Of a DNA stretch of 44,046 bases, positions 3,512 to 25,459 are shown one piece after another; position 1 is the first letter of the stretch, and each line of letters opens with the position of its first letter. The DNA is from a virus, in IMG/VR virus record IMGVR_UViG_3300048837_002306, positions 1-44,046 of that record; one strand, written 5' to 3'. The position numbers and the translations under genes are program-made. Under the pieces are notes generated by a model. That model searched no databases, was not told the origin of the DNA, and saw only the letters and a list, made by a program, of their open reading frames with translations.

Positions 3512-3787
3512 ATGTCGCAACTCACCCGTTTCAATCGGCCGATTGTCCGATATCTGCCAGCACTTCATTTAGTCATTCGTTTCGACGATTCGGGCATCGC
3601 AATTCGTGCATATCGCTGTCGCAAATGGAAAAACGTCAGTTGGGCTCAGCTCGCCTCTTTAGCGGACGACACCGAACCGATGGTCAGATTCTGTGAGACT
3701 AACCACGGTTCACGAGTTTTGAAAGCGATGGGAGTGCGGCTTCCTGCAGATGTTACGAAGGGACCAAATGAAGGTGGTACAGCTTGA
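3512..3787 (+). CDS. Hypothetical protein preceding the primase
   Basis: A 91-residue soluble protein of unknown function. The middle part (residues 20-60: VIRFDDSGIAIRAYRCRKWK, then SWAQLASLADD) looks like a small beta-alpha domain. I recall similar short proteins next to phage primases but cannot name the family. Its stop overlaps the TTG start of the primase-helicase, so the two are probably translated together. Confidence 0.6.
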   Translation: MSQLTRFNRPIVRYLPALHLVIRFDDSGIAIRAYRCRKWKNVSWAQLASLADDTEPMVRFCETNHGSRVLKAMGVRLPADVTKGPNEGGTA

Positions 3788-8237: not shown

Positions 8238-9617
8238 ATGAAGATCGAAATGTGGCCGATCACTCAACCGCGGCCGTACGAGAGCAATCCTCGAGTCAAC
8301 GACAAGGCTGTCGATGCCGTCGCAGCATCGATCAAGGAATATGGATTCTCGCAGCCAATCGTGGTCGACACGTATGGCGTAATCATCGTTGGCCATACCC
8401 GGCTCAAAGCAGCACAAAAACTCGGCCTGGAGTATGTTCCAGTCGTGGTGGCATGCCACCTTACCCCTGAGCAAGCTCGCGCCTACCGGATCGCGGACAA
8501 CAAAACGGCCGAACTCGCGGACTGGGATTTCGACCTGTTGCCGATCGAATTGTTTGCGCTGCAAGAAGCGAACTACGATCTCGGAATGCTCGGCTTCAAT
8601 TCCGAGGAACTCGCGAAGCTGATGGACACCGGCGTCAACGAAGGCTTGACCGATCCGGACGACATCCCCGAGCCCCCAGACGAAGCGGTCACCCAACCAG
8701 GCGACCTCTGGATTCTCGGCAACCATCGCCTGCTTTGTGGCGACTCATCCTCGCCGGCTGATCTGGATCGTCTGCTGGCCGGCGCAGCGATCCATCTCGT
8801 CAACACGGATCCGCCTTACAACGTGAAGGTTGAACCGCGGTCGAACAATGCGATCGCTGCCGGCCTATCGTCGTTCACCAATGATGGAGCTGCTTCGAGG
8901 CTGAAAGGTGGCCAAGGAAACGCTGCATCGTTCGGTGTCGACCATGAGACCGGCAAACCAAAACATGCGGCAACGCACAAGAAGCTTCGCGCGAAAGATC
9001 GTCCGTTAGCAAACGACTTCGTTAGCGATGAGGCCTTTGACCAGTTGCTTGAAGATTGGTTTGGAAACATTGCTCGAGTACTGCTTCCAGGTCGTTGCTT
9101 CTACATCTGGGGTGGCTACGCCAACTGTGGAAACTACCCGCCGGTCCTCAAGAAGCACGGTCTTTACTTTTCGCAGTCGATTATCTGGGACAAGCAACAC
9201 CCTGTCTTGACGCGTAAGGACTTCATGGGGGCGCACGAATGGGCGTTCTATGGGTGGAAGGAAGGTGCTGGGCATAAGTACTACGGGCCCAAGAATGCGA
9301 CGGACCTGTGGCAAGTAAAGAAGATCAATCCGCAGTCGATGTCGCATTTAACCCAGAAGCCCGCCGAGCTTGCGGTCCGTGCGATGCAGTACTCGTCGGT
9401 GCAAGGTGAGAATGTGCTGGACCTCTTTGGTGGTAGCGGCTCAACGCTGATCGGCGCTGAGCAGTGTGGTCGCAATTCGTTCTTGATGGAACTCGACACC
9501 CTTTACTGTGATGTGATCGCAGACCGCTTTCAACGCTTCACAGGGATTCCGGCGGTGTTGGAACGAACTGGCGAATCTCCGATTCCTATGAAGGCGCGTG
9601 AAGCGAGCATGCGTTAG
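8238..9617 (+). CDS. ParB-like domain fused to DNA methyltransferase
   Basis: A 459-residue DNA modification protein. Residues 1-110 form a ParB/Sulfiredoxin-like nuclease domain (SNPRVNDKAVDAV, then GHTRLKAAQKLG). The rest is a class beta N6-adenine or N4-cytosine methyltransferase: motif IV is DPPYNV near residue 191 and motif I is LFGGSGSTLIGAE near residue 396, in the circularly permuted order of that class. Such fusions are common in phages and protect DNA from restriction or mark packaging sites. AGAAGG precedes the ATG. No cognate restriction enzyme is in the window. A + frame of 2,510 codons begins 20 nt after its stop. Confidence 0.9.
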   Translation: MKIEMWPITQPRPYESNPRVNDKAVDAVAASIKEYGFSQPIVVDTYGVIIVGHTRLKAAQKLGLEYVPVVVACHLTPEQARAYRIADNKTAELADWDFDLLPIELFALQEANYDLGMLGFNSEELAKLMDTGVNEGLTDPDDIPEPPDEAVTQPGDLWILGNHRLLCGDSSSPADLDRLLAGAAIHLVNTDPPYNVKVEPRSNNAIAAGLSSFTNDGAASRLKGGQGNAASFGVDHETGKPKHAATHKKLRAKDRPLANDFVSDEAFDQLLEDWFGNIARVLLPGRCFYIWGGYANCGNYPPVLKKHGLYFSQSIIWDKQHPVLTRKDFMGAHEWAFYGWKEGAGHKYYGPKNATDLWQVKKINPQSMSHLTQKPAELAVRAMQYSSVQGENVLDLFGGSGSTLIGAEQCGRNSFLMELDTLYCDVIADRFQRFTGIPAVLERTGESPIPMKAREASMR

Positions 9618-9627
9618 ATAGTAGCGG

Positions 9628-9945
9628 TCACAATTTATGGCAATGCCAAGCATGCTCCTCAAAAACGTAAACGTACTCGGTGCCACAGTTCCTGGCAAAG
9701 TCATGCAAGGCAGCGAGTGTCGGCATGGTGACAGCCCGGTTGCCGTCGGAAAACCGATCGACAGTTCCGTTTGCGTCCAGCGATCGAATGTCGCCGCCGG
9801 AAACAAGCATTCGCGCCAACTCCGGCGTGCCGTGGCGTTGCTCAAGGACTCTGCCGGCGTGCTCTGGGTAACCATCAAAGTGCAAGTAGATCGCCGCGTA
9901 GCGACCGTCGTCATGCTTGCAGGCAATCGTTGCTCGTGTCGACAT
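9628..9945 (-). CDS. MGTRS-type conserved small phage protein
   Basis: A 105-residue protein starting MSTRATIACKHDDGRYAAIY, followed by HFDGYPEHAGRVLEQ. This pattern (M-x-T-R-x-T-I, an acidic-turn strand, then C/H-x-D-G-Y with H/A-G) matches a widespread phage and plasmid protein family of unknown function. The middle holds GGDIRSLD and the C-terminus is short and His/Cys-containing (HAWHCHKL). It is the last gene of the reverse cluster, 12 nt after DUF4314, with no leader element of its own, so it is probably co-transcribed with the two upstream genes. Confidence 0.75.
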   Translation of the reverse strand: MSTRATIACKHDDGRYAAIYLHFDGYPEHAGRVLEQRHGTPELARMLVSGGDIRSLDANGTVDRFSDGNRAVTMPTLAALHDFARNCGTEYVYVFEEHAWHCHKL

Positions 9946-9957
9946 GAGTTGGATTCC

Positions 9958-10182
9958 TTACTTCGATGGTTCTTGGTGGGTCGGCTCGACAATCGAAACG
10001 CAGTCGTCGGGAATCGTCAGCATGAGTGTCCGGCCGTTGTCCCAGTCGACATCGACCTGTGTCCATTCGCGTTGATCACGTACGGCGACAACGGTGCCAA
10101 GCGAACCGACGGGGATCGGGTCTGGGTCTTGTGGCATCGAAACCAGGCGGATCCGATCGCCTTTCTTCAATCGTATTTGCAT
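9958..10182 (-). CDS. DUF4314 family protein
   Basis: A 74-residue protein with the DUF4314 signature: KKGDRIRLVSMPQDPDPIP at residues 6-24, then GSLGTVVAV and a closing strand with WDNGRTLML and PDD. The fold is a small beta barrel resembling KOW/SH3 modules. The function is unknown; members are common in phages and mobile elements. It lies 18 nt after the preceding reverse gene and 12 nt before the next, with ribosome site AAGGAACG, so the three genes appear to be one small operon. Confidence 0.85.
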   Translation of the reverse strand: MQIRLKKGDRIRLVSMPQDPDPIPVGSLGTVVAVRDQREWTQVDVDWDNGRTLMLTIPDDCVSIVEPTHQEPSK

Positions 10183-10200
10183 AGTCGTTCGTTCCTTGGT

Positions 10201-10416
10201 TCATTTCGGGCCAGCGGCGAGTCGGTCAAGCAGCTCGCCGGCCTGTGCGAGTCGTGCGTTGACCTGGGCCATCGTGTGAACTTGCCGCCAACGCAGCGCC
10301 GGGTCGTCGGGCGGTTGCAAAGCGTCGAGCGATTGACGCAATCGGTCGAGATAGTCGCGCGCGACAAGATGAAGGTTCTCATAAGGAGCTGCAGGCTCGA
10401 TGGTTGGTTTGGGCAT
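10201..10416 (-). CDS. Small helical protein, operon start with degenerate leader
   Basis: A 71-residue, probably all-helical protein (residues 12-70) with many Leu, Ala, Arg and Gln, including RDYLDRLRQSLDALQ and ARLAQAGELLDRLA. It resembles the other helical small proteins of the cluster in composition; I do not recognise a named family. AGAGTCAGGAAAC precedes the start. A degenerate leader copy lies about 42-80 nt upstream of the start. It is the first of three closely spaced genes. Confidence 0.6.
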   Translation of the reverse strand: MPKPTIEPAAPYENLHLVARDYLDRLRQSLDALQPPDDPALRWRQVHTMAQVNARLAQAGELLDRLAAGPK

Positions 10417-10457
10417 ATATGTTTCCTGACTCTTGTTGAAATGAAAGACGGGCCCTT

Positions 10458-10497
10458 ACAGTCAGCCAGGAAATCAAGAGAACATCAAGCCAACATG
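10458..10497 (-). promoter_or_regulatory. Leader element, degenerate copy (gene 10201)
   Basis: On the reverse strand GGCTTGA is followed by exactly 14 nt and CCTGGCTGACTGT, a weakened form of the conserved block. The 14-nt spacing is kept. Confidence 0.4.
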
Positions 10498-10611
10498 CGA
10501 GCATGTTTTGATGATTTTTCAAAAACATCTGGATGCGTGAGCGAACGGGAGATTTGCGACCGGTCGCATGCCCATGCAATCTCGGATAGCTGTGGCACCA
10601 ACGAGAAAACG

Positions 10612-10633
10612 CCCACACGTTTCAAACGTGGGG
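10612..10633 (-). terminator. Stem-loop terminator after the 77-aa gene
   Basis: On the reverse strand CCCCACGTTTGAAACGTGTGGG forms a stem of about 9 pairs with a tight loop, followed by CGTTTTCTC. It lies 42 nt after the stop of the 77-residue gene and is the best intrinsic-terminator candidate of the cluster. Confidence 0.55.
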
Positions 10634-10674
10634 CGATGCGGGGGAAATGTGCTTCGCTTCCGGCTTTCCGGGGG

Positions 10675-10908
10675 CTACAAGTCGCGCGGTACCAAGATGG
10701 CCGCGCCATGTCCGGAGACTGCGATCGAGTCTCCATTGGTTGTTCGCGCAAACAGCGTCGGGCCTTGTCGGATCACATCAACAACGCTTCCGACCTCAAG
10801 GTTGCGATTGTTGATCGTTCGCAGGTTGTAGGTGATGCCAGGTTCTGGCGTTGCGACCTCGCCGTCAGCGAGGTCCTCGACCGTTCGCAAATCGTAAAAG
10901 TGTTTCAA
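10675..10908 (-). CDS. Hypothetical protein, 77 aa
   Basis: A 77-residue mainly beta protein (residues 25-70: GITYNLRTINNRNLEVGSVV, DVIRQGPTLFARTT) that may be a small barrel. No family recognised. It follows the HARE-HTH gene by 12 nt and is followed by a stem-loop with a short T-run at 10612-10633, so the two genes likely form one transcript that ends there. Confidence 0.6.
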   Translation of the reverse strand: MKHFYDLRTVEDLADGEVATPEPGITYNLRTINNRNLEVGSVVDVIRQGPTLFARTTNGDSIAVSGHGAAILVPRDL

Positions 10909-10920
10909 CGGCGTGGTCTC

Positions 10921-11490
10921 CTAGGCTCGAGAGGTGAATCGTCCGCGTTCGGTTTTCACAAACTTGCTTTCGTCGCCCTTGGCCAGGTCGCGGAGAATCG
11001 CGCTGTACAAAGTCGCATGGGGAGTCTTGCCTCCGGGGCTCGCCCAGTATCCCTTGGATTCCATGGTTGTGATCAACTCTTGAACGTTCATCGGATCGCT
11101 CGATTCGCTAAGCACCTTCAAGGCGGCCTTCAGGCAGCTCAAACGCTTCTCACCGGTCTCGCCGCCCTCGGCTGTGGCGGCCTTCGCCTTGCGCGGCTTC
11201 TTGAGAACCCCAACCGCTGTGGAAGTCTCGGTGGCAGTCGCTTCGACGGCAACGGGCTGATCATCGGCATCGATGGCGGTGACTGCGGTTGTCGCCTTGG
11301 GCCGCCCGCGACGCGCCGACACTTCGCCTTGCAACCGCTGCGCGCTCTTGATGAGGATCTTCTTACCGGTGGCGAGATTGGTAGCGTCCCAACCGCCGCG
11401 CGGTTTCTCGGCATCGATTTGAATCTCACATCGCTTGCCGGAAACGTTCGCGTAATACTTGCCACCGATTCTTACTTCTGCCTTTTTCAT
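10921..11490 (-). CDS. HARE-HTH winged-helix protein
   Basis: A 189-residue protein. The N-terminal 45 residues are a small beta unit (VRIGGKYYANVSGKRCEIQI, ATNLATGKKI). A charged Ala/Thr/Lys linker follows. The C-terminus (about residues 118-189) has the HARE-HTH pattern ALKVLSESSDPMNVQELITT, then MESKGYWASPGGKTPHATLY and FVKTERGRF. HARE-HTH domains are winged helices of chromatin and restriction proteins thought to bind DNA or modified DNA. I chose ATG 11490 (GGGAGATACGAGA upstream); an in-frame ATG at 11529 would add 13 residues. It could be a transcription regulator of the cluster, but nothing shows this. Confidence 0.85.
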   Translation of the reverse strand: MKKAEVRIGGKYYANVSGKRCEIQIDAEKPRGGWDATNLATGKKILIKSAQRLQGEVSARRGRPKATTAVTAIDADDQPVAVEATATETSTAVGVLKKPRKAKAATAEGGETGEKRLSCLKAALKVLSESSDPMNVQELITTMESKGYWASPGGKTPHATLYSAILRDLAKGDESKFVKTERGRFTSRA

Positions 11491-11583
11491 TCTCGTATCT
11501 CCCAATTCGTCTTCGTGGATGGCTGCCATCGTCAGGCCGATCGAACCACCGATCGACTACGCGCGTCCGTGCTGCGTTTCGGC

Positions 11584-11898
11584 TTATTGACCAAAGACCA
11601 AGTCCGACAATCCCTCGCAGAGAAAGTCGACCACCACTTGAATCTCAGCGTTGGCCGCCGGCAGATCCAAGCCGCGGTCGAAGTTGAACATGGTTTTTTT
11701 GTCGGCGAGGCGTTGAATCCAGAGCTTCGATATCTTGCTTTGGTTCAACTCGTACGATTCGTGGTCCGCATGTTCGGCAAAGACCAAGGCGTCAAATCGA
11801 TAGTCGTCGTTGATCTTTCCCTGCACCCAAGATCCGCCAGCACCGCGGTTGCGATTGCTGATTTTGGTGATCGTCAGGTCGAGGTCGTATTGGGTCAT
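11584..11898 (-). CDS. Hypothetical protein with leader element, 104 aa
   Basis: A 104-residue protein with an N-terminal beta part (LDLTITKISNRNRGAGGSWV, then INDDYRFDALVF) and a C-terminal helix with CEGLSDLVFG. I recall similar phage proteins with no assigned function. The ATG at 11898 has GGAGC upstream; the frame stays open upstream through the leader to an ATG at 11949, but that ATG is part of the repeated element. It is the first gene (counting from low coordinates) with a full leader copy, 45 nt before its start codon. Confidence 0.65.
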   Translation of the reverse strand: MTQYDLDLTITKISNRNRGAGGSWVQGKINDDYRFDALVFAEHADHESYELNQSKISKLWIQRLADKKTMFNFDRGLDLPAANAEIQVVVDFLCEGLSDLVFGQ

Positions 11899-11943
11899 CT
11901 TTATTGCTCCGTTGGCGGGTGGGTGATTCGTTTTCGCGTTAAC

Positions 11944-11981
11944 ACACATGAGCCATGTCTTTCAAATCACATCAAGCCGGA
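11944..11981 (-). promoter_or_regulatory. Leader element copy (gene 11584)
   Basis: Reverse strand: CGGCTTGA, 14 nt, then CATGGCTCATGTGTGT. Arms ATGT/ACAT enclose the spacer. It lies 45 nt upstream of the start codon. Confidence 0.7.
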
Positions 11982-12003
11982 TTTAGAAGGAATTCAAAAA
12001 CTT

Positions 12004-12231
12004 TTATTCTGTGCAAACGTTGTTTCGGAAATGCTGGGAAAGTTTTGCAGCTGCGGCCTGCACATCGGCCAGCTCGTCAAAGAACTGTTTCATGGTGTGC
12101 GGGTCGGCGGCCGCGAGGACCGGCATCTCTTCGACCGCTGCATACAGGTCGCTGATCGTCTCGAGCGCTCGTCGGTGTGCTCCGAGGAACTGGGCCGAGG
12201 TCAGGCGTGGTCGGTTGGTCATGGTTGGCAT
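12004..12231 (-). CDS. Small helical protein (family II)
   Basis: A 75-residue helical protein. Residues 15-72 carry ALETISDLYAAVEEM and KQFFDELADVQAAAAKLSQH. The FF-x3-D-x-x3-L-x5-F pattern near the C-terminus is shared with the 71-residue gene at 14215 (RFFRRMDDLHDAL), suggesting distant paralogs. The ATG at 12231 follows GCAGGAGAAACACG. The frame is open upstream through the leader for 81 more codons, but the leader position matches all other copies. Function unknown. Confidence 0.65.
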   Translation of the reverse strand: MPTMTNRPRLTSAQFLGAHRRALETISDLYAAVEEMPVLAAADPHTMKQFFDELADVQAAAAKLSQHFRNNVCTE

Positions 12232-12279
12232 CGTGTTTCTCCTGCGTTGGGTTGGAATGAAATCGCGTTTCGTATTCAC

Positions 12280-12316
12280 ACACATGAGCCATGCGGTTTG
12301 AACGGCATCAAGCCGA
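12280..12316 (-). promoter_or_regulatory. Leader element copy (gene 12004)
   Basis: Reverse strand: CGGCTTGA, 14 nt with arms ATGC/GCAT, then CATGGCTCATGTGTGT, 48 nt upstream of the start codon. A second motif TCGCGTT lies at a fixed distance further up. Confidence 0.75.
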
Positions 12317-12409
12317 TTCCAGCAGCTTTTCCCAGTCTTTTGCCATGTTTCTGTGTGTCGCCCAGTTCGGCCCACGTTCGTTTGTGTCGCGTTCGATTGC
12401 ATGTTGCAT

Positions 12410-12476
12410 CGTTGGGCGTAGGTGGCGGAAAGAACGCGACACGGCTCGAATGTCGCGTTGTGTTTGCCACCCAACG
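12410..12476. other. Nested long hairpin in the 12232-12510 spacer
   Basis: Three nested arms can pair: CGTTGGG with CCCAACG, GGTGGC with GCCACC, and AACGCGACA with TGTCGCGTT. The whole forms a hairpin of about 67 nt. The AACGCGACA arm is a further copy of the motif found 104 nt from the leader. It could act as a terminator for the 12511 gene. Confidence 0.4.
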
Positions 12477-12510
12477 CCGCGCGTCCATTCGCGGCCTATT
12501 AGGGTCTTGC

Positions 12511-12729
12511 TTAGCCCTGCTCGTCAGTGATCTTGAACATCTCCCGAATTCCGTCCAACGCGATTCCAAGGTCTCGCAATTCGATGGTCTTTTCGTGGTC
12601 AAACTCGAAGTCGTCCGCGAAGGGGTCGGGGAACGCTGCGAGGTGCCGTTGGAGCAAGGCGAGTTGCTCATAGACCTCGGCGTAGTTGTTGGTGTAGGCG
12701 TCGTACTGCTGGTGTGTGTGACCGGCCAT
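12511..12729 (-). CDS. Small protein with leader element, 72 aa
   Basis: A 72-residue, helical, slightly acidic protein (YAEVYEQLALLQRHLAAF, then HEKTIELRDLGIALDGIREM). The start MAGHTH lies 8 nt after AAAGGAAC. No family recognised. Its leader copy is the only one out of phase with the gene compared with the others, so the in-frame upstream translation reads MAHVCHR instead of MCV. It is followed by one of the ~280-nt spacers. Confidence 0.6.
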   Translation of the reverse strand: MAGHTHQQYDAYTNNYAEVYEQLALLQRHLAAFPDPFADDFEFDHEKTIELRDLGIALDGIREMFKITDEQG

Positions 12730-12776
12730 CGTGATGTTCCTTTGGGGTTCGAATTTGAAATCGCATATGCGATGAC

Positions 12777-12814
12777 ACACATGAGCCATGCGGCTCAAAC
12801 CGCATCAAGCCGAA
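12777..12814 (-). promoter_or_regulatory. Leader element copy, out of phase (gene 12511)
   Basis: Reverse strand: CGGCTTGA, 14 nt with perfect arms ATGCGG/CCGCAT, then CATGGCTCATGTGTGT. It is the only copy shifted in reading phase, so the sequence, not a peptide, is conserved here. Confidence 0.75.
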
Positions 12815-12873
12815 CGGGAAAGGATTCTGAAGGTTTTCCAGAATCTTTCCCCTGGCGCATCGGCGTGTTGCGA

Positions 12874-13143
12874 TCAGCTATCGCGACATGTTTCCCAAGC
12901 GCGTTTGCTGCCGTAGCAGATCTGGCCACCTTCGACGATGTAGACGATGTTCTCGTCGGCGACGTCCTGGTCGTCGTCGCCCTCGTCATCGTCGTCCGCT
13001 TCATTCATGTCGCGGCCGCTCGTCACACCGCAGATGCGGTTCTCGAAAGGCCAGTTCTGTTGGGTCATCAGCCGCACTTCGGCGTCGCCTCCGAACTCTT
13101 CGCGGTAGTCGTTGAGGATTTCGATCAGGGTGTCGAGATTCAT
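12874..13143 (-). CDS. Acidic-loop conserved small protein, 89 aa
   Basis: An 89-residue protein of a family I recall from phages and myxobacterial or planctomycete genomes: LIEILNDYREEFGGDAEVRL at the N-terminus, then MTQQNWPFENRI, an acidic run of about 15 Asp/Glu, and a C-terminal VYIVEGGQICYGSKRAWE. The acidic run is probably an insertion loop. Function unknown. It has a leader copy 45 nt upstream. A 144-nt spacer separates it from the next gene. Confidence 0.7.
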   Translation of the reverse strand: MNLDTLIEILNDYREEFGGDAEVRLMTQQNWPFENRICGVTSGRDMNEADDDDEGDDDQDVADENIVYIVEGGQICYGSKRAWETCRDS

Positions 13144-13188
13144 GTTTGGTTTTCCGTTTGGGTTACTGGAAATGGGTTATGCGATAAC

Positions 13189-13226
13189 ACACATGAGCCA
13201 TGCGGTTCGGATAACCTCAAGCCGTT
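13189..13226 (-). promoter_or_regulatory. Leader element copy (gene 12874)
   Basis: Reverse strand: CGGCTTGA, 14 nt with arms GGTT/AACC, then CATGGCTCATGTGTGT. Flanking GCGATAAC and GTTATCGC can pair in addition, giving an outer stem. Confidence 0.7.
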
Positions 13227-13251
13227 ATCGCAATGTTTTCAGCAGGTTTTT

Positions 13252-13527
13252 TCAGCATTTCTTGGAAGGCAAAAGTTCGTCGATCGCTTCGGGCAGCATG
13301 CTGCCGGCAACGACATCGATGGCTTCTTCAAACATGCGAAGCTCCGCTTCCAGTGCACTAGCCGTATCGCCACTTGCCACCACGAATCCGCCGGCCAAGT
13401 TGTCTGCCAGCCGCTTCAGCCGCGTGACCACTTCGCGGTAGTCCTCGCAGATATCGAGAGCGGTTGCGCGAGGCATTTGGTTAAGGGCGGTTCTGATGGC
13501 GGCTGGTCGGTCGTGGTTGCGGGGCAT
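13252..13527 (-). CDS. Small helical protein (family I, paralog of the 14716 gene)
   Basis: A 91-residue helical protein. It aligns end to end with the gene at 14716: DRPAAIRTALNQMPRATALDI here against DRIAAIKTALGNMHPSSARDI there, and ASALEAELRMFEEAIDVV against ATALQEELTLAEEALNIL. This is clear paralogy. The product is probably a helical bundle of unknown role. ATG 13527 has GAGGAGAACAAACCG upstream. Its leader copy has a shorter conserved block (GTCTGAC in place of GTGTGTC). Confidence 0.7.
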   Translation of the reverse strand: MPRNHDRPAAIRTALNQMPRATALDICEDYREVVTRLKRLADNLAGGFVVASGDTASALEAELRMFEEAIDVVAGSMLPEAIDELLPSKKC

Positions 13528-13578
13528 CGGTTTGTTCTCCTCATGCGTTGTGGAAGCGGTTTGCCGTGGGGCGATGTC

Positions 13579-13616
13579 AGACATGAGCCATGCGGTTTAG
13601 GTCACAGCAAGCCGAT
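13579..13616 (-). promoter_or_regulatory. Leader element copy (gene 13252)
   Basis: Reverse strand: CGGCTTGC, 14 nt, then CATGGCTCATGTCTGAC, a slightly diverged block. The central arms are weak. TCGCGTT lies at the fixed distance upstream. Confidence 0.6.
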
Positions 13617-13768
13617 TTCTGCACCTTTTCTTCAAGTGTTTCGTTGTTTCCATGCATGCCCTACGATGGCCGACGTTCGCCTGTGTCGCGTTCACCTGCT
13701 TGTAGGGAACTTGGTCGCATGTGATAGAACAAACGCTAACGGTCGCCACCGGTGCGTCCCAGCGAAAG

Positions 13769-13794
13769 AACGCCGCGATTCCCTTCGCGGCGTT
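13769..13794 (-). terminator. Hairpin after the 13810 gene, copy 1 of an identical pair
   Basis: AACGCCGCGA and TCGCGGCGTT form a perfect 10-pair stem with a 6-nt loop, followed on the reverse strand by CTTTCG. It lies about 16 nt after the gene's stop. The same hairpin with its flanks recurs at 16148-16173 behind the amidoligase gene. The T-run is weak. Confidence 0.6.
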
Positions 13795-13809
13795 CGTCGT
13801 TCTTCCGGT

Positions 13810-14058
13810 TTACAGGACCGCGCCGAGGCGGCTTCGTCGCATTGCGGTGAGGGCTTCGACCGCGTTGAAGTGTTCGTCGAGCAGCGGGCCGGCGGTTGGT
13901 GTTTGCTGCGCGTCGGCAACCTCGAGGGTCTCCGCCAAGGTCATCAATCCCTCGATTGCCTTGTAGTAGGCTTCGCGAATCTCCTGGGCCTGGTGTGCGT
14001 CCATCGCTTTGAAAATCTGGCGAAGGGTTGCGTCGGTGTTTTGGTTGGCGTTGGTCAT
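13810..14058 (-). CDS. Small helical protein (family I, distant member)
   Basis: An 82-residue helical protein. LRQIFKAMDAHQAQEIREAY followed by KAIEGLMTLAETLEVAD and LLDEHFNAVEAL shows the same helix spacing as the 13252 and 14716 genes, so it is a probable third member. GGAGACACAAAC precedes the ATG, identical in style to the 15169 gene. An inverted-repeat hairpin lies shortly after its stop (13769-13794). Function unknown. Confidence 0.65.
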   Translation of the reverse strand: MTNANQNTDATLRQIFKAMDAHQAQEIREAYYKAIEGLMTLAETLEVADAQQTPTAGPLLDEHFNAVEALTAMRRSRLGAVL

Positions 14059-14106
14059 GTTTGTGTCTCCGTTTCGGAAAGGTGTATGAATCGTTTACGC
14101 GATGAC

Positions 14107-14144
14107 ACACATGAGCCATGCGGTTCAAATCGCATCAAGCCGAT
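14107..14144 (-). promoter_or_regulatory. Leader element copy (gene 13810)
   Basis: Reverse strand: CGGCTTGA, 14 nt with arms ATGCG/CGCAT, then CATGGCTCATGTGTGT, the closest to consensus, 48 nt upstream of the start codon. Confidence 0.75.
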
Positions 14145-14214
14145 TCCGAAAAGATTTCAGAATGTTTTTTCGAACTTGGCCTCCTTGCCCAGTTCTTCCG
14201 CCTGTTGTTGGCGA

Positions 14215-14430
14215 CTATGCGGTTCTCTTTACAGGGAAGCGACTCGTGAGGCTGTCGAGGGCGTCGTGCAGGTCGTCCATTCGCCGGAAGAACCGCAGCA
14301 TCTCTTTCTTGCCCTCGGTCGGAATAGTCTGCTGGTCCAAGGCTTGGCGGAGTTCGTCGAGGAGTTCCGAGGCGGCCAGGTGTGCGAAGTAGCAATCGTC
14401 GGCGGTGATTTCGTTGGTTCCGTTGAGCAT
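14215..14430 (-). CDS. Small helical protein (family II), 71 aa
   Basis: A 71-residue helical protein: ASELLDELRQALDQQTIPTE, then RFFRRMDDLHDALDSLTSRF. It shares the FF-x-x-M/L-x-D-L pattern with the 12004 gene. GAGACACACAG precedes the ATG at 14430. The frame stays open upstream to 14598 through the leader copy, whose central arms are GCTTT and AAAGC, a compensatory change relative to other copies. Function unknown. Confidence 0.65.
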   Translation of the reverse strand: MLNGTNEITADDCYFAHLAASELLDELRQALDQQTIPTEGKKEMLRFFRRMDDLHDALDSLTSRFPVKRTA

Positions 14431-14475
14431 CTGTGTGTCTCTTGGTTTGTGTGTTGGAATCGTTGTTTCGATGAC

Positions 14476-14513
14476 ACACATGAGCCATCCGGCTTTGGAA
14501 AGCTCAACCCAAG
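14476..14513 (-). promoter_or_regulatory. Leader element copy (gene 14215)
   Basis: Reverse strand: GGGTTGA, 14 nt with strong arms GCTTT/AAAGC, then GATGGCTCATGTGTGT. The arms differ from other copies but still pair. Confidence 0.65.
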
Positions 14514-14630
14514 CAATCGCATATTCGGGAAAAATAACCCTTCTTTTCTCCTTTTGGCGGAAATCCCACAAAACGCCCCCGGTGGCGTTTCCGTTCATCG
14601 TTGGGCACTATTAGTTACATACACCAAACA

Positions 14631-14665
14631 GGCCCACAGTGGCGAAACTTTTAGCCACCGGGGCC
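14631..14665. other. Nested hairpin in the 14431-14715 spacer
   Basis: GGCCC pairs with GGGCC and GTGGC with GCCAC around a short loop. Together with 14676-14699 (GAACCGAAC/GTTCGGTTC) it forms a double stem-loop after the 14716 gene; neither has a T-run in the gene's direction. Confidence 0.35.
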
Positions 14666-14715
14666 CATCAATCCCGAACCGAACTTCCGTGTTCGGTTCA
14701 GGCGTAGTGGTTGAT

Positions 14716-15012
14716 TCAGCCAACGTGCCGGCTATTCGATGCCGGACTCGCGTTTTGCTGCTGCAGGAGCAGGACGGGAAGCACGCTTTCGCAAAGAATG
14801 TTCAAGGCCTCTTCGGCGAGGGTCAATTCCTCTTGCAGCGCGGTGGCCGGTTCACCGCGTACGCCGCAGCTTTCGCATTGGAGCGACTCAATCAGCTCTG
14901 TCAGATTTCCGCATGCTTCGCTAAAGCTTTCGAGGATATCGCGTGCGCTCGATGGGTGCATGTTGCCCAGGGCGGTCTTGATGGCTGCGATTCGGTCGTA
15001 GTTGAGATTCAT
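14716..15012 (-). CDS. Small helical protein (family I), 98 aa
   Basis: A 98-residue helical protein, paralog of the 13252 gene (DRIAAIKTALGNM; EELTLAEEALNILCESVLP). It carries an additional CESCGV motif near residues 45-50 not present in the paralog and a polar tail with Gln/Asn/Ser. The leader lies 51 nt upstream of ATG 15012. After its stop, a GAACCGAAC/GTTCGGTTC stem-loop (14676-14699) lacks a T-run. Confidence 0.7.
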   Translation of the reverse strand: MNLNYDRIAAIKTALGNMHPSSARDILESFSEACGNLTELIESLQCESCGVRGEPATALQEELTLAEEALNILCESVLPVLLLQQQNASPASNSRHVG

Positions 15013-15063
15013 CACTGTGGTTTCCAGTCGGGTTTTGAAATTGGGTTGCCGTTTGACTATGTC

Positions 15064-15101
15064 ACACATGAGCCATGTGTTTATGGAAAGATCAAGGCGT
15101 G
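15064..15101 (-). promoter_or_regulatory. Leader element copy (gene 14716)
   Basis: Reverse strand: GCCTTGA, 14 nt with weak arms (TTT/AAA), then CATGGCTCATGTGTGAC. Slightly diverged. Confidence 0.6.
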
Positions 15102-15168
15102 TCCAAAAACATTTCAAAAAGATTTCTCAGGCAGCCGTCCTTGGCTACCTGACAATCACACCGCAGTG

Positions 15169-15459
15169 CTAGTCTTTGCCGTTGAGATAGTTGAGCATGT
15201 TTTGTTGCTCGTAAAGTTTCATGAGTTCGGCTTTGGCCTCGCGTGCGGCGCGGAGGTCGCTCTCGGCAAAGTCGACCCAGGACAAGCTCCAAGCTCCGTC
15301 GGAAAGCATTGCCTCGGTCTCTTTGACCGCCTTTTGTGCCCTGCGAAGCATGCATTGGGCGGCTTCGTCCATCCGGCGTTTAGCATCCGGAATCATCCAT
15401 TCGAGGCGTCGCAGTTGATCGGCGATTGCTTGTTGCGAGTTGTTGGTCGTTTCGGCCAT
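15169..15459 (-). CDS. Small helical protein, 96 aa
   Basis: A 96-residue, almost fully helical protein (QAIADQLRRLEWMIPDAKRR, RAQKAVKETEAMLSD, then AAREAKAELMKLYEQQNML), consistent with a coiled coil or a helical hairpin. No family recognised. GGAGACACAAC precedes the ATG. Its leader is 48 nt upstream; after it, a 156-nt spacer leads to the next gene. Confidence 0.65.
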   Translation of the reverse strand: MAETTNNSQQAIADQLRRLEWMIPDAKRRMDEAAQCMLRRAQKAVKETEAMLSDGAWSLSWVDFAESDLRAAREAKAELMKLYEQQNMLNYLNGKD

Positions 15460-15507
15460 AGTTGTGTCTCCGTTTCGGAAAAGGGTTTGAATCGTTTACT
15501 CGATGAC

Positions 15508-15545
15508 ACACATGAGCCATGTAATGAAAACAAGCTCAAGGGTAT
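15508..15545 (-). promoter_or_regulatory. Leader element copy (gene 15169)
   Basis: Reverse strand: CCCTTGA, 14 nt, then CATGGCTCATGTGTGT. Arms short (TGT/ACA). The upstream motif TATCGCGTT lies at the same distance as in the other long spacers. Confidence 0.6.
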
Positions 15546-15670
15546 TCCGGCAGCTTTTCAAAATATTTTTCAATGTTCTCGCACAGCCCCAATAAATGCC
15601 CACGCTAGCGTGTATCGCGTTCGTTCGAATGTTGGGCAGTTACTATTGACATACCCAATAAACGCCGACA

Positions 15671-15730
15671 GTGGCGGACACGGCGCCACCGGGAGCTATT
15701 CCAACCGATACCAAACATCCTTGTTTGGTT
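15671..15730. other. Stem-loops after the 53-aa gene
   Basis: GTGGCG pairs with CGCCAC at 15671-15689, and ACCAAAC pairs with GTTTGGT at 15711-15730. The second is followed by TTTTTC on the + strand, so it would be an intrinsic terminator for + transcripts, not for the reverse gene it follows. Confidence 0.35.
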
Positions 15731-15747
15731 TTTCGTTCAAGCGTGGG

Positions 15748-15909
15748 CTAATCGTTCGAGATCAAAGTTTCCGCGGTCGGCACGTTGATCCGTGTGCCGT
15801 CTGCCATCGGCAAATAGAAGCCGCCGAAGGTTCGGCGGATGGTATCGAATACCGGTACCCCATTGATTCGATCACCGGGCTTGATCTCGTGCGCTCTGCG
15901 CTTGTTCAT
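15748..15909 (-). CDS. Small basic protein, 53 aa
   Basis: This short gene encodes MNKRRAHEIKPGDRINGVPV followed by a strand-rich stretch with RRTFGGFYLPMADG and a polar end. The KPGD and VPVFDTI pattern suggests a tiny beta barrel. GCGGAGACAGAAAC precedes the ATG in the same style as the neighbours. It has the leader geometry and the same codon phase as all other genes in the cluster, which supports it being real. Function unknown. Confidence 0.6.
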   Translation of the reverse strand: MNKRRAHEIKPGDRINGVPVFDTIRRTFGGFYLPMADGTRINVPTAETLISND

Positions 15910-15954
15910 GTTTCTGTCTCCGCGTGGGTAGATGAAAAACCGTTTTGTGATAAC

Positions 15955-15992
15955 GTCAATCAGCCATGCGGTTTCGATTTACTCAAGCGGTC
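15955..15992 (-). promoter_or_regulatory. Leader element copy, diverged (gene 15748)
   Basis: Reverse strand: CGCTTGA, 14 nt, then CATGGCTGATTGAC. The 14-nt spacing and the distance to TCGCGTT are kept although the block is diverged. Confidence 0.55.
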
Positions 15993-16147
15993 GGTCGCAG
16001 ATTCCGTAGCATTTTATGAATGTTTTTCGCCTGCCCGTCAACTTGCACAAAACTCGCCGTGTCGCGTTTGTTCTAGGCTTGGCCCGATGCGTTTCAAGCA
16101 CCCATACGATCGCGACAGACGCGAAACGGTGGGCGGTATAACGAAAG

Positions 16148-16173
16148 AACGCCGCGATTCCCTTCGCGGCGTT
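16148..16173 (-). terminator. Hairpin after the amidoligase gene, copy 2 of an identical pair
   Basis: Same 10-pair stem (AACGCCGCGA with TCGCGGCGTT) and the same flanks as at 13769-13794; about 33 nt are identical between the two sites. It lies about 20 nt after the amidoligase stop on the reverse strand and is followed by CTTTCGTTA. The perfect repetition points to a shared terminator or a recombination-copied spacer. Confidence 0.6.
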
Positions 16174-16191
16174 CCAGGGCCCGGTTATCCG

Positions 16192-17049
16192 TTAGGCGAC
16201 CCGGTCGTATTTACGGGCGAGTTCGAGGAGTTTGGTTTTGATCGTTTTCCATTCCGGTTTGGCCTCGCCGGAGATCTCGCCGTAAATCTTATCGCGAAGT
16301 TTGCCCTTGTACCAACCCTTCGTCCATCCGAGTCGGTAGAACAACCGGTTGAGTTCCGTTTCGCCAAGACCAGCCCCGGGGCGGTCCCAGCAGCTCTTGG
16401 TACCGTCTTTCTTAATGTAGTCCCATTCGCTGCAGCGTTTGGTGTTGAGGGCGAGTTCTACCAAGCCCAAAAACATCATCAGGTATCCGACCACCTTGGT
16501 CTTGTTGAGCGTTCCGGCGAAGGCCCGGAATTCGATCCGCTGCTTTCCGCGGGTCAGGTGTGTCAGGTTGAGTATGTGGTACCGATCCGACTCGCATCGC
16601 ATTTTGGCGTTTTCTTTGTTGCCGTATTGTTTGATTCGTTTGGTGTATACGACCTGTTCTCGTCGGCGTGTGCCGGTCGAGGCGAAGATCGCTCGTTCGT
16701 GATTTCCCACCAGGGAAATCAATCGTGCCAGGGCGGCCGCGTCGCCGTTCCAGGTTACCGTTATGTGCAACCCGCAAGTCGCGTTGACCCGCCCGCCGCG
16801 AGCGATAATTTGGTCGATCGCGTTTTCCACTTGGCCTACGCCTTCGGTCCCTTTGAGGATCGGACTTACAAACTCGCAGCCTTTGCGGCTTGCCCGCTCC
16901 GGTCGGATGCTGCCATCGCGTTCTGCTTTCCAGCCCGTGGGCAGCCAGGGGACTTGGTATCCGTTGTGGTACGGTCCGATCGGTGTGTTGTCGGTGGTTG
17001 GGAGGGTGGTTTCAAATTCGATTCCGAAGGCGATTTCGTTTGCGTTCAT
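16192..17049 (-). CDS. Amidoligase-fold enzyme
   Basis: A 285-residue protein matching my knowledge of the Amidoligase_2 family (glutamine-synthetase-like fold): FGIEFETTLP at residues 8-17, GCEFVSPIL near residue 57, CGLHITVTW near residue 92, and IEFRAFAGTLN near residue 171. The paired E-x-E and H-x-x-x-x residues are the expected ATP/metal site. Such enzymes form amide bonds between amines or peptides and carboxylates and are often found next to small proteins. It is the first gene of the array and lies furthest upstream. ATG 17049 follows CCTAGGAGCGCACAG. The substrate is unknown; a protein or peptide target in the cluster is speculation. Confidence 0.8.
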   Translation of the reverse strand: MNANEIAFGIEFETTLPTTDNTPIGPYHNGYQVPWLPTGWKAERDGSIRPERASRKGCEFVSPILKGTEGVGQVENAIDQIIARGGRVNATCGLHITVTWNGDAAALARLISLVGNHERAIFASTGTRRREQVVYTKRIKQYGNKENAKMRCESDRYHILNLTHLTRGKQRIEFRAFAGTLNKTKVVGYLMMFLGLVELALNTKRCSEWDYIKKDGTKSCWDRPGAGLGETELNRLFYRLGWTKGWYKGKLRDKIYGEISGEAKPEWKTIKTKLLELARKYDRVA

Positions 17050-17109
17050 CTGTGCGCTCCTAGGTGGTTCGAGGTGTGTTTTGCGTCGCGTTTTCTGCGT
17101 CGCGATGAC

Positions 17110-17147
17110 ACACATGAGCCATGTGTTTCGAGGAACATCCAGCCGAT
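17110..17147 (-). promoter_or_regulatory. Leader element copy (amidoligase gene)
   Basis: Reverse strand: CGGCTGGA, 14 nt with arms ATGT/ACAT, then CATGGCTCATGTGTGT. It is the first of the array and lies 60 nt upstream of the chosen amidoligase start. The + frame ends 22 nt beyond it. Confidence 0.65.
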
Positions 17148-17210
17148 TAATGCATGTTTTTTCCAGTAATTTCCATGTTTTTTGAGATGCCAACGGTGCC
17201 CCAACATTAC

Positions 17211-17287
17211 GCCACCGTCGCGTTAAAACATGCCTCGCATAACCAGGCGAACATGTGGCCAGAACGCGACCGTGCGCAAACGGTGGC
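17211..17287. promoter_or_regulatory. Divergent control region with nested inverted repeat
   Basis: The interval between the divergent amidoligase array and the late gene at 17324 holds arms GCCACCG/CGGTGGC, GTCGCGTT/AACGCGAC and GCCT/AGGC, nested in this order. TCGCGTT is again the shared motif of the array. This is the natural place for promoters of both directions or for an operator. No clear -35/-10 pair was recognised. Confidence 0.45.
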
Positions 17288-17323
17288 CCCACGTTTTGAG
17301 ATGGCGATCCACGGAGGCGTTCG

Positions 17324-17530
17324 ATGAGTGAAGGGAGCGGCCAGATTGATCCAACGAGAATGTCGGTCGAGCAGGCGGCAAAGCTGCTTTCGGCCGCCTA
17401 CCGAGAGCGAATCGACCAAGAGAAGATCCGGTTGGACCTAGAAAACGGTGCGCCGGTGAACGTCGACGGCACGATCAACCTCGTGCACTACAGCGCGTGG
17501 CAAGCGAAGGAGATGGGACGTGGCGACTGA
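17324..17530 (+). CDS. Small protein upstream of terminase
   Basis: A 68-residue protein with MSVEQAAKLLSAAYRERIDQ, then IRLDLENGAPVNVDGTINLV and HYSAWQAKEM. Its helix-turn-strand order suggests a small DNA-binding or packaging accessory protein, and I recall similar short proteins preceding planctomycete phage terminases. ACGGAGGCGTTCG precedes the ATG. It is the first + gene after the reverse cluster, separated from the terminase by a reverse toxin-antitoxin pair. Confidence 0.6.
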   Translation: MSEGSGQIDPTRMSVEQAAKLLSAAYRERIDQEKIRLDLENGAPVNVDGTINLVHYSAWQAKEMGRGD

Positions 17531-17956
17531 CTATAGAAGCCAATCGTCAATCGACAGTCCAGGAATTCGTTCAAAGTCAACAGTGTTTTGTGTTAACAAC
17601 GTCATTTGGTTGGCAATCGCAATGGCTGCGATTCTCAAGTCCATTGAGCCAACCCTCAGTCTTTGTTGATTCAGTTCGTCAAAAACCTCTGCTGCCTTGC
17701 GATCAAACGACAGCAGTTGCATTTCGGAAAAGTCTTTAAGAATATTCTCGAACTCAAAATAGGTGCGCACCAAAGATTCGCTGTTACCTTTTTTGACTGA
17801 GTAGGCATTCCAACCGTTCACCATTTCATGAAAAGAAACAATACACACATAAATCTGATCACCGGTTTGAGTTTCCAGACGAGTGCAAAGCCTTTCGTAC
17901 TCGGCACCCTCACCGCGTTGCCATACGCTTATGTGGTTGGTGTCAAAAAGAAACAC
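17531..17956 (-). CDS. vapC: VapC-type PIN-domain toxin
   Basis: A 141-residue PIN-domain ribonuclease. The four acidic positions are visible: D5 in FLFDTNH, E44 in SFHEMVN, D106 in GSMDLRIAA and D127 in QNTVDFERI. The length is normal for VapC toxins, which cut tRNA or rRNA. It overlaps the upstream antitoxin gene by one nucleotide. The pair is placed on the reverse strand between two late + genes and ends two codons after the previous gene, so it looks inserted. It appears intact, unlike the other two toxins of this window. Confidence 0.85.
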   Translation of the reverse strand: MFLFDTNHISVWQRGEGAEYERLCTRLETQTGDQIYVCIVSFHEMVNGWNAYSVKKGNSESLVRTYFEFENILKDFSEMQLLSFDRKAAEVFDELNQQRLRVGSMDLRIAAIAIANQMTLLTQNTVDFERIPGLSIDDWLL

Positions 17957-18159
17957 TACTGGTTCCCTTCTGTGGATTCCTGGTCACGGATTTCCTTGCC
18001 AAGTCGAACAATCTCCTGGAAATCTGGATCGCCTTTGAACGTACCTCGCACTCGTTCTAGCCAACCCAGCTTCGAGTTTTCAGCGAGCTTTCCACGCTTG
18101 ATTGCTTCCAAATCACGTTCAACTTTTGCGAGACGTTCTTCGACTGTAGACATACTCAC
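17956..18159 (-). CDS. vapB: VapB-like antitoxin
   Basis: A 67-residue protein. TVEERLAKVERDLEAIKRGK forms an N-terminal coiled-coil, followed by LGWLERVRGTFKGDPDFQEI and a polar C-terminus that would bind the toxin. It resembles the coiled-coil-type partners of PIN toxins rather than the AbrB type. GGAGGTGAGT lies just upstream of the start. It neutralises VapC by inference from the gene pair. Confidence 0.75.
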   Translation of the reverse strand: MSMSTVEERLAKVERDLEAIKRGKLAENSKLGWLERVRGTFKGDPDFQEIVRLGKEIRDQESTEGNQ

Positions 18160-18228: not shown

Positions 18229-20496
18229 ATGCCAACAGACCCACGAAAACTGAAGCCGAGCGAGCTATGCCGACTACTGAACTCCACACCGCTCGGCGAG
18301 GTAATCAGCGAGCGCCAGTTGTACCGCCATCGGCAACGCGCCGGCGCACGCATCGGGGATAACAAAACCGTCGACCTGCTTCGGTATTGTGCTTGGATGC
18401 ATGTCGTAAGACATACGCCTCGCACGGCGGACGGTGGTGATCCGTACGAAGCGATGAAAGAGCGAGCACGAGCCCGCAACGCAGCGCTCGCACTTGCCGG
18501 TCGCGACATTGGTGAACTGCCGGAAGTCGACAATGCCGATCGTAAAGACCGGGCATCGCGTGACTTCCGATATTTTTGTGAGACATATTTTCCGTTAACG
18601 TTTCATCTCGCTTGGTCGCCGGACCATATCAAGGTCATCAATAAGATCGAACAAGCTGTAGTCCACGGCGGATTGTTTGCGTTGGCGATGGCACGAGGCA
18701 GCGGCAAATCATCCATCGCGGAGGTTGCCTGCATTTGGGCTGTCTTATACGGCCATCGAAACTTTATCTGTTTGATTGGTAGCGATGAAGGGCATGCTTG
18801 TGACATGCTCGACTCCATCAAGACCGAACTCGATAGCAACGATCTGCTATTGGCCGATTTCCCGGAGGTTTGTTTTCCGATTCAAGCACTCGATGGTATC
18901 TCCAATCGCGCCAACGGCCAACTCTATAAAGGCAAACGGACGCAGATCGGCTGGACCGCCAAGGAAATTGTGCTGCCCACCATAGCTGAGTCGCCCGCCA
19001 GCGGTGCGATCATCAAAGTTGCTGGTTTGACCGGACGCATCCGAGGGATGAAGTTCAAACGGCCCGACGGTCACACCGTTCGGCCGAGCTTGGTTGTGCT
19101 CGATGATCCGCAAACGGATGAGAGCGCTCGGTCGTTGTCGCAGTGCGCCAATCGCGAGAGCATCCTCGCCGGCGCGGTGCTTGGGCTTGCCGGCCCAGGA
19201 AAGAAGATTTCCGGCATCATGCCATGCACCGTCATCCGACCGGGTGATATGGCCGACAATATTTTGGATCGTAACCGCCATCCGGAATGGAACGGTGAAC
19301 GAACCAAGATGGTTTATTCGTTCCCAACCAACGAAACGCTCTGGCAGCGATATGCCGAGATCCGCTCCGAGGGGATGCGTAACGGCGATGGCGGTGAAGC
19401 CGCAACCGAGTTCTATCGTGAAAACCAACAAGCGATGGACGCCGGATCGATCGTGGCATGGCCCGAGCGGTTCAACCACGACGAACTGTCGGCGATTCAG
19501 CACGCGATGAACTTGAAGCTGCAAGACGAGGCGGCCTTCTTTGCTGAATACCAAAACCAACCGTTGTTGGAAGAAACGGTAACGGACGGCATGTTAAAGG
19601 CCGACGAGGTGATGACCAAAATCAACCGCATGGAACGTGGTTTGGTTTCGATCGGTGCGAACCATTTGACGGCGTTCATTGATGTCCAACAGAAACTCTT
19701 GTTTTACACCGTCGCCGCCTGGGAGGACGATTTTACTGGCTACGTCGTCGACTATGGATGTTACCCCGATCAGCAGCGGCCCTATTTTACCCTGCGTGAC
19801 GCGCGTCAAACGCTTGCCCTCGAAGCCACCGGTACCGGCCTCGAGGGTTCGATCTACTCCGGCCTGGAATCGTTAACGTCGCAGCTACTTGATCGCGAGT
19901 GGCGGCGCGATGACGGGGCCGCGATGAAGATCGGGCGCTGCTTGGTGGACGCGAACTGGGGGCACTCAACCGATGTGGTGTACCAATTCTGCCGGCAATC
20001 CAAGCACGCCGCTGTGATCATGCCGAGCCATGGTCGCTTCGTTGGTGCCTCAAGTCTGCCGTTTAGCGAGTATCGACGCCGGCCCGGTGATCGCGTGGGA
20101 CTCAACTGGCGAATCCCCAATGTGCATGGCAAGCGGGCTATTCGCCACGTCGTTTACGACACCAACTGGTGGAAGTCATTCGTCAATGCACGACTGCATG
20201 TGGCAATGGGCGATCGCGGATGCCTGTCGATGTTCGGTAGCACCCCGGAAACGCACCGAATGTTTGCCGAGCAAATCACCTCCGAGTATTTCATCCGTAC
20301 CGAAGGCCGCGGTCGGGTTGTCGACGAATGGAAACCGCGTCCTGAGCAGCCCGATAATCACTGGCTTGACTGTCTGGTGGGCTCAGCGGTTGCGGCTTCG
20401 ATGCAAGGAGCGGTGCTATTTGGTACCGACGGAGTGGTTGCTGCAAAGCGGGATCGTTTGAGTTTCAAGGAGATGCAGGTGCGAAGAAAAGGGTAG
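18229..20496 (+). CDS. terL: Terminase large subunit with N-terminal DNA-binding region
   Basis: A 755-residue packaging motor. The ATPase has ARGSGKSS as Walker A near residues 157-164 and LVVLDD as Walker B near residue 287; the nuclease half (about residues 470-700) has FIDVQQKL and later acidic positions. Residues 1-60 hold ELCRLLNSTPLGEVISERQL and RHRQRAGARIGD, a helix-turn-helix resembling a small-subunit DNA-recognition part, so small and large functions appear fused. This may explain why no separate small subunit is visible. ATG 18229 has GGTCGG upstream. Confidence 0.9.
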   Translation: MPTDPRKLKPSELCRLLNSTPLGEVISERQLYRHRQRAGARIGDNKTVDLLRYCAWMHVVRHTPRTADGGDPYEAMKERARARNAALALAGRDIGELPEVDNADRKDRASRDFRYFCETYFPLTFHLAWSPDHIKVINKIEQAVVHGGLFALAMARGSGKSSIAEVACIWAVLYGHRNFICLIGSDEGHACDMLDSIKTELDSNDLLLADFPEVCFPIQALDGISNRANGQLYKGKRTQIGWTAKEIVLPTIAESPASGAIIKVAGLTGRIRGMKFKRPDGHTVRPSLVVLDDPQTDESARSLSQCANRESILAGAVLGLAGPGKKISGIMPCTVIRPGDMADNILDRNRHPEWNGERTKMVYSFPTNETLWQRYAEIRSEGMRNGDGGEAATEFYRENQQAMDAGSIVAWPERFNHDELSAIQHAMNLKLQDEAAFFAEYQNQPLLEETVTDGMLKADEVMTKINRMERGLVSIGANHLTAFIDVQQKLLFYTVAAWEDDFTGYVVDYGCYPDQQRPYFTLRDARQTLALEATGTGLEGSIYSGLESLTSQLLDREWRRDDGAAMKIGRCLVDANWGHSTDVVYQFCRQSKHAAVIMPSHGRFVGASSLPFSEYRRRPGDRVGLNWRIPNVHGKRAIRHVVYDTNWWKSFVNARLHVAMGDRGCLSMFGSTPETHRMFAEQITSEYFIRTEGRGRVVDEWKPRPEQPDNHWLDCLVGSAVAASMQGAVLFGTDGVVAAKRDRLSFKEMQVRRKG

Positions 20497-25057: not shown

Positions 25058-25120
25058 GCAGGTGTTATACCTGAGGTTCAGATCAATCAATTTCCTTCCT
25101 CCTAAAGCCTCAAGCCAATT

Positions 25121-25450: not shown

Positions 25451-25459
25451 TGAACCACC

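Follow-up and report, generated by a model that had tools for sequence, protein, structure and literature searches.

How does a stretch of phage DNA that carries sixteen genes on one strand come to lack a single stop codon in one frame of the other, and what would such a frame be for? The question is raised by an IMG/VR virus record (IMGVR_UViG_3300048837_002306; 44,046 nt, 55% GC), all of which was analysed and is called the window here. In it, a + strand frame runs stop-to-stop from 9625 to 17166, 2,514 codons with 0 stops, opposite a cluster of reverse genes and the spacers between them. An earlier note had described this as a 2,510-codon frame over sixteen reverse genes and about 860 spacer codons, starting 20 nt after the upstream gene and ending beyond the last leader, and had offered two readings: a hidden giant protein, or a translated transcript that crosses the cluster. 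The description holds throughout, as the spacer DNA amounts to 2,598 nt (866 codons, with minus starts set at ribosome-binding sites) without a stop, 20 nt separate the upstream gene's stop (9617) from the frame start, and the frame end (17169) lies slightly past the last leader (17105-17123). Even if the longer minus open reading frames (ORFs) are taken, leaving 635 codons of spacer, 0 stops are found against ~28 expected. Between the readings, we consider it probable, from the sequence comparisons below, that the frame is an 'ambigrammatic' bridge, the + strand being kept stop-free for ribosomes to cross the reverse island toward the packaging genes.

The openness belongs to one frame only. 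Over the same interval the remaining two + frames hold 67 and 99 stops, and all 16 minus genes lie in the single antisense frame whose codons align with those of the open one. In that gene-carrying frame the antistop codons TTA, CTA and TCA number 0 in 2,514 codons, against 99 and 67 in the two other minus frames; its own 41 stops are the ends of minus genes or are located in spacers. From base composition alone ~90 stops would be expected. We compared the frame with 300 Markov-1 resamples, and with a harsher null of 200 resamples in which the minus proteins were fixed, synonymous codons were drawn from the minus genes of relatives without an open frame, and spacers were resampled (mean 28.6 stops, minimum 13); resampling the spacers only gave a mean of 22.9 and a minimum of 11. 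The longest stop-free runs were 612, 849 and 968 codons, respectively, so that the equal length in shuffled sequence which the earlier note had named as damaging to its case was never matched, and chance, composition or codon bias as the source of the openness is rejected by several nulls.

It is the minus genes that encode the region's real proteins: they have homologs in diverged relatives, include members of Pfam families, and evolve fast at third positions of the minus frame. Could the open frame nonetheless be a by-product of their codon bias and of base composition, with no function on the + strand? The + strand is A-poor, and minus genes avoid T-ending codons and contain few TTA and CTA codons even in loci without an open frame. 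With the codon usage of those loci, however, 5.2 stops would remain within the minus genes and ~23 in the spacers; none of the 200 full resamples falls below 13 stops, the spacers are stop-free in one frame only, and reverse cargo genes that are not bridged carry 2-3% antistops. Such a by-product is therefore extremely unlikely. Nor is a codon effect on the minus strand the full cause of the avoidance of TTA, CTA and TCA (10 seen against 336 expected in the minus genes of close open loci), because the spacers avoid these triplets too, because other A-ending codons are used (GCA, CGA and ACA show no avoidance), and because three promoter-distal genes avoid antistops only in loci whose open frame covers them.

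The frame is also conserved, as the earlier note had proposed to check. Relatives gathered by a terminase query come from planctomycetes, mainly Pirellulaceae, and no near relative was found in INPHARED. A + frame of at least 1,000 codons, its length ranging from about 1,000 to 2,514, lies in the equivalent position, flanked by the ParB/methyltransferase gene and the terminase, in 39 distinct loci (the window included). In close relatives, the stretch from the ParB/methyltransferase gene to the amidoligase gene has 0 stops in the aligned frame over 3.7-6.8 kb, and 36-99 in the other two + frames. Gene content beneath the frame differs between relatives, and its length follows the minus-gene content. 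The case said to refute a maintained frame, the same reverse genes with + stops, is seen only in eight Rhodopirellula-type prophage loci (L034, L036, L059, L165, L168, L169, L172 and L174, in our numbering of loci), in which minus genes and leaders stand in mixed frames and short + ORF chains are mostly no better than those of shuffles. On a terminase tree with a midpoint root only, these loci appear to be derived losses: the open state occurs in all deep branches, and the losses make up at least three changes, all inside the Rhodopirellula-type clade. The low TTA/CTA content of the lost loci had at first suggested + translation in them, an idea that we dropped because much of the depletion is accounted for by a bias toward C-ending codons. 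L121 has a frame of 2,862 codons that we set aside, as the beginning of its translated sequence resembles a host-type giant surface protein. One 107-kb contig (IMGVR_UViG_2687453341_000003) holds two different copies of the cluster (L099 and L108), which may be two related phages or prophages side by side.

Is it the product of the frame that is selected? Selection on an encoded protein would leave a fast-evolving third codon position. In the spacers, the substitution rates at + codon positions 1, 2 and 3 are 0.200, 0.229 and 0.196, and there are many 1- and 2-nt indels, compensated inside the same spacer. Doubly synonymous sites, in a test modelled on one used for narnaviruses and with the same outcome as there (PMC8155312), change less than fourfold sites (0.230 versus 0.425; 0.362 versus 0.575 in control genes). 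What is maintained is openness, and not the + amino-acid sequence, because the spacer rates are flat, doubly synonymous hotspots are lacking and the giant + product matches no Pfam family; the purifying selection on + amino acids expected of a functional overlapping gene is not seen. On these grounds we rejected the hidden giant protein of 2,510 aa antisense to the cluster, which we hold to be very improbable despite the long frame, its conserved position, its ends at gene boundaries and the AGGAGGT near its start in several close relatives; its length, moreover, would change with the minus-gene content. We do not use as evidence a test of stop gains by single substitutions in spacers (24 seen, 45 expected): it is weak, since the reading frame is displaced locally by compensated indels.

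The closest known kind is the ambigrammatic narnaviruses (PMC6884476, DeRisi 2019; PMC8155312, Dudas 2021; PMC8316113, Retallack 2021). Both have a codon-aligned antisense frame that is stop-free nearly throughout, achieved by avoidance of UUA, CUA and UCA, and in both the antisense product is without sign of conservation and doubly synonymous sites give no hotspots. Of the features that define ambigrammatic coding, the phage locus shows those that can be read from sequence: the near-complete reverse ORF, the codon alignment, the conserved openness and the absence of product constraint. Narnaviruses, however, are very small RNA genomes of eukaryotes, and the window, with its terminase, portal and tape measure genes, does not have the RNA genome and RNA-dependent RNA polymerase of that taxon; here a dsDNA phage carries sixteen genes plus spacers in this way and, unlike in narnaviruses, the antisense frame is tied into a co-directional operon by start/stop overlaps. 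Among the 20 listed of 26 open-access papers using the term, none by its title concerns a DNA phage, in a search that was not exhaustive.

Only the codon-aligned antisense frame can lose its stops by synonymous changes (PMC6884476), and so the minus genes would be expected to share one frame and their leaders to avoid the phase that reads TGA. The leader is a repeat (ATGACACACATGAGCCATG on the + strand) found ~40-60 nt ahead of the start of many minus genes, with ten copies between 11939 and 17123. Nine of these share one phase, and that of the tenth (12772) is also stop-free. Across open frames, 145 of 147 leader-like matches lie in the two stop-free phases, and the two in the stop phase have their TGAs altered. 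We rejected the repeat as a conserved + peptide motif (THEPCG), because one leader copy has the same nucleotides in another frame. With a conserved GCATGGCTCATGTGTGTCATCGC, CTTGA before it and a variable hairpin with covariation apparent by eye, it looks like a regulatory element, though not one of sigma-70 type, as no sigma-70 match was found.

Where does the open path lead? In the window, openness continues beyond the end of the giant frame (17169) through the ORF at 17154-17327 to an ATGA at 17324, whilst in ~20 relatives the stop of the frame overlaps the next + start by 1, 4 or 8 nt, as ATGA or TGATG (examples are L002, L014, L016, L070, L072, L078, L162 and L198). In these relatives the next + gene encodes 68-75 aa and occupies the position of the terminase small subunit. 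An upstream stop overlapping a downstream start at -4 or -1 is the arrangement of coupled genes; it is present at 17324-17327 and in those ~20 relatives, and many other + junctions of the window are likewise -4 or -1 overlaps. The overlap is partly forced, because the next gene often begins with ATGA and a frame open to that point must stop there; the informative part is that the frame is open through the leader and through intergenic DNA without a minus gene. We took as a tiling path the fewest + ORFs, each restarting within 20 nt of the last, that connect the two flanking + genes. Such paths consist of 1-4 ORFs in 19 genomes; only 0-2 of 20 shuffles made the connection, and they required 7-33 ORFs. 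In distant relatives of higher GC, ATGA-linked chains cross other minus genes, one of them HARE-HTH, with a smaller excess over shuffles. Together, conservation, junction overlaps and short paths favour the second reading of the earlier note, a translated transcript across the cluster.

Overlaps of this kind mediate termination-reinitiation (PMC6728339), and their presence in many relatives (ATGA or TGATG) could mean that the frame's main role is to bring ribosomes to the start of the 68-aa gene and to the terminase, transcription termination being irrelevant. We think this hardly probable, as the 68-aa gene likely has its own ribosome-binding site (GGAGG, ~10 nt before ATG 17324), and a short upstream ORF would do, making 2,500 codons unnecessary.

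We posit instead that ribosome delivery would be one benefit of a bridge that acts along its whole length. The + strand is one long left-to-right operon, in which most genes meet at short start/stop overlaps or are separated by small gaps. Within it sits the reverse accessory island, which encodes the amidoligase, the HARE-HTH protein and numerous small proteins, most of them preceded by a leader of their own. Stop avoidance in a single frame, in genes and spacers alike, points to ribosomes on the + RNA as the only selecting agent: selection would clear stops from the + frame codon-aligned with the minus genes, and ribosomes on the + transcript would translate from the upstream gene over the island and reach the next + start. 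The selected property would be uninterrupted translatability, with the peptide sequence free to change. Rho acts on untranslated RNA. It also suppresses pervasive, mostly antisense, transcription (PMC9931155), so that a + RNA whose next gene is start/stop-coupled would have to stay translated. The most likely benefit would be to prevent Rho-type polarity, and untranslated antisense RNA, as RNA polymerase passes over 4-8 kb of antisense DNA, and to bring ribosomes to the packaging genes by termination-reinitiation. The sequences show the openness and its conservation, the codon alignment, the lack of product constraint and the overlaps at the ends; transcription and translation of the + strand, and their purpose, we infer.

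Alternatively, the + RNA might be translated for its own protection or for its action on the minus genes (silencing, timing or the avoidance of dsRNA cleavage). Narnaviruses are likewise translatable without product constraint, and ribosome protection has been proposed for them (PMC8316113, PMC8155312); several Rhodopirellula-type open frames, moreover, cover the island unconnected to the upstream gene. Against this, many frames continue past the last leader to the next + start, where there is no minus coding, and a second, unrelated reverse insertion is bridged in L029 and L052. This ribosome-coated antisense RNA is accordingly an unlikely explanation, if the least unlikely of those we set against the bridge.

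That second insertion is an AT-rich reverse PIN-domain module of 735 nt (46% GC) that separates the small gene from the terminase gene and is unrelated to the island. It is crossed stop-to-start by one + frame with 0 stops, against 12 and 8-9 in the others, an outcome reached in 0 of 500 shuffles; as no more than 8 of the 735 sites distinguish the two copies, the bridging counts as one event. Reverse toxin-antitoxin-like modules occupy the same gap in the window (17531-18159, -), L029 (7902-8554) and L002 (9191-9825); those of the window and L029 have a PIN domain, and the modules differ between loci.

Several observations weigh against the bridge, at least as a strict demand. In the window itself, bridging of the PIN insertion is loose (3 ORFs, restarts within 40 nt), and the L002 module is not bridged at all (7 ORFs). 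Between terminase and portal, L039, L041 and L042 hold 3-5 kb of reverse cargo, unbridged and with the antistop content given above. The eight lost loci keep their reverse genes under many + stops. Most other Rhodopirellula-type loci have stops only in the first ~0.8-1 kb, antisense to the cluster's last genes, before 1,100-1,600 open codons, so that their open path does not start at the upstream gene; the three last genes there employ antistop codons without restriction, and genes within the frame rarely contain them. In the window, ATG 9637 has no clear Shine-Dalgarno sequence ahead of it, where several close relatives have AGGAGGT, and the C-ending codon bias of the minus genes explains part of the TTA/CTA depletion. 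Demand for bridging is thus not absolute, given the eight losses and the unbridged cargo, and internal promoters could take its place. The loosely bridged and unbridged modules look as if clearing of stops takes time. Perhaps there is a lineage-wide rule, to which we give even chances, whereby reverse gene sets within the operon become cleared of antisense stops over time and are crossed by ribosomes on product-less 'bridge ORFs', which would keep transcription and translation coupled across such islands.

How does this compare with other known systems? Termination-reinitiation coupling in overlapping bacterial genes uses the same -4 and -1 overlaps, ATGA and TGATG (PMC6728339, PMC10666635); unlike in those gene pairs, one partner in the phage is a frame that lacks a conserved product and runs antisense to other genes. 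Phage polarity suppression (lambda N/Q antitermination, and the Rho inhibitor Psu of P4; PMC11718236) shares the proposed purpose, polymerase passage where untranslated RNA would trigger termination. Here, unlike with N, Q or Psu, it would work, if at all, via translated RNA; no protein acting on polymerase or Rho was identified, and none was specifically searched for. Antiparallel overlapping bacterial genes such as laoB (PMC5810103) also place an antisense frame on a bacterial gene; they are short single ORFs argued to code for functional proteins, whereas the phage frame extends over many genes with their spacers and its product is not conserved. For the nesting of genes on both DNA strands by 'bridge ORFs' we found no description in the literature.

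Ambigrammatic coding is otherwise described, in the literature we found, only for small RNA viruses, and its purpose is debated there. A phage family with full, partial and lost openness would offer a comparative system in which a purpose is testable, namely translation carrying transcription across antisense genes. It also counsels caution: long conserved stop-free ORFs need not encode a selected protein, and annotation pipelines may pick the wrong strand at such loci.

Table 1. Coordinates of the open frame, the reverse cluster and the adjoining + genes in the window.
Feature	Position	Strand	Basis or remark
ParB-like nuclease / DNA methyltransferase fusion, upstream gene	8238..9617	+	PHROG hits
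Giant stop-free + frame ('bridge ORF')	9637..17169	+	first ATG 9637, TAA 17167-17169, 2510 aa
Second bridge ORF, 57 aa	17154..17327	+	ATG 16 nt before giant frame's end; TGA overlaps next start
68-aa gene, terminase-small-subunit position	17324..17530	+	conserved in relatives; no Pfam or PHROG match
Terminase large subunit	18229..20496	+	PHROG hits
Amidoligase_2 family, first gene of reverse cluster	16192..17049	-	Pfam 6.5e-16; minus codon-position pattern
Minus gene, 53 aa	15748..15909	-	homologs in relatives
Minus gene, 96 aa	15169..15459	-	
Minus gene, 98 aa	14716..15012	-	
Minus gene, 71 aa	14215..14430	-	
Minus gene, 82 aa	13810..14058	-	
Minus gene, 91 aa	13252..13527	-	
Minus gene, 89 aa	12874..13143	-	
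Minus gene, 72 aa	12511..12729	-	
Minus gene, 75 aa	12004..12231	-	
Minus gene, 104 aa, DUF7678	11584..11898	-	Pfam 2.7e-16
Minus gene, 189 aa, HARE-HTH domain	10921..11490	-	Pfam 1.9e-12
Minus gene, 77 aa	10675..10908	-	
Minus gene, 71 aa	10201..10416	-	
Minus gene, 74 aa, DUF4314	9958..10182	-	Pfam 1.8e-11
Minus gene, 105 aa, phrog_1987, last gene of cluster	9628..9945	-	
Repeated leader of amidoligase gene (+ strand reading ATGACACACATGAGCCATG)	17105..17123	-	
Repeated leader	15503..15521	-	
Repeated leader	15059..15077	-	
Repeated leader	14471..14489	-	
Repeated leader	14102..14120	-	
Repeated leader	13574..13592	-	
Repeated leader	13184..13202	-	
Repeated leader, different but also stop-free phase	12772..12790	-	
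Repeated leader	12275..12293	-	
Repeated leader	11939..11957	-	
Type II hammerhead ribozyme, leader of HARE-HTH gene	11517..11584	-	Rfam RF02276, 37.2 bits (cut-off 37)
Terminator-like hairpin after amidoligase gene	16146..16175	-	
Terminator-like hairpin, 10.42-10.67 kb spacer	10612..10632	-	

The hammerhead ribozyme of the HARE-HTH leader occurs on the same strand in all seven relatives tested (L002, L003, L016, L029, L035, L162 and L166), and we found no published account of this pairing in the literature. The reverse cargo of the Rhodopirellula-type prophages (L042 12497-17632, L039 12366-16220 and L041 12515-15694, all on the - strand) is defence-like, with phosphorylase-STAND NTPase (Avs-like), kinase-WD40 and HD-CE/HSP90-like ATPase proteins. 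Elsewhere in the window, a 551-codon stop-free minus frame (24158-25813) lies antisense to the + genes 23024-25057 and 25121-25450, and its 526-aa ORF has no Pfam match. Finally, the + strand at 3784-6453 encodes an 889-aa protein with a TTG start and no more than weak DNA polymerase/primase-like matches.

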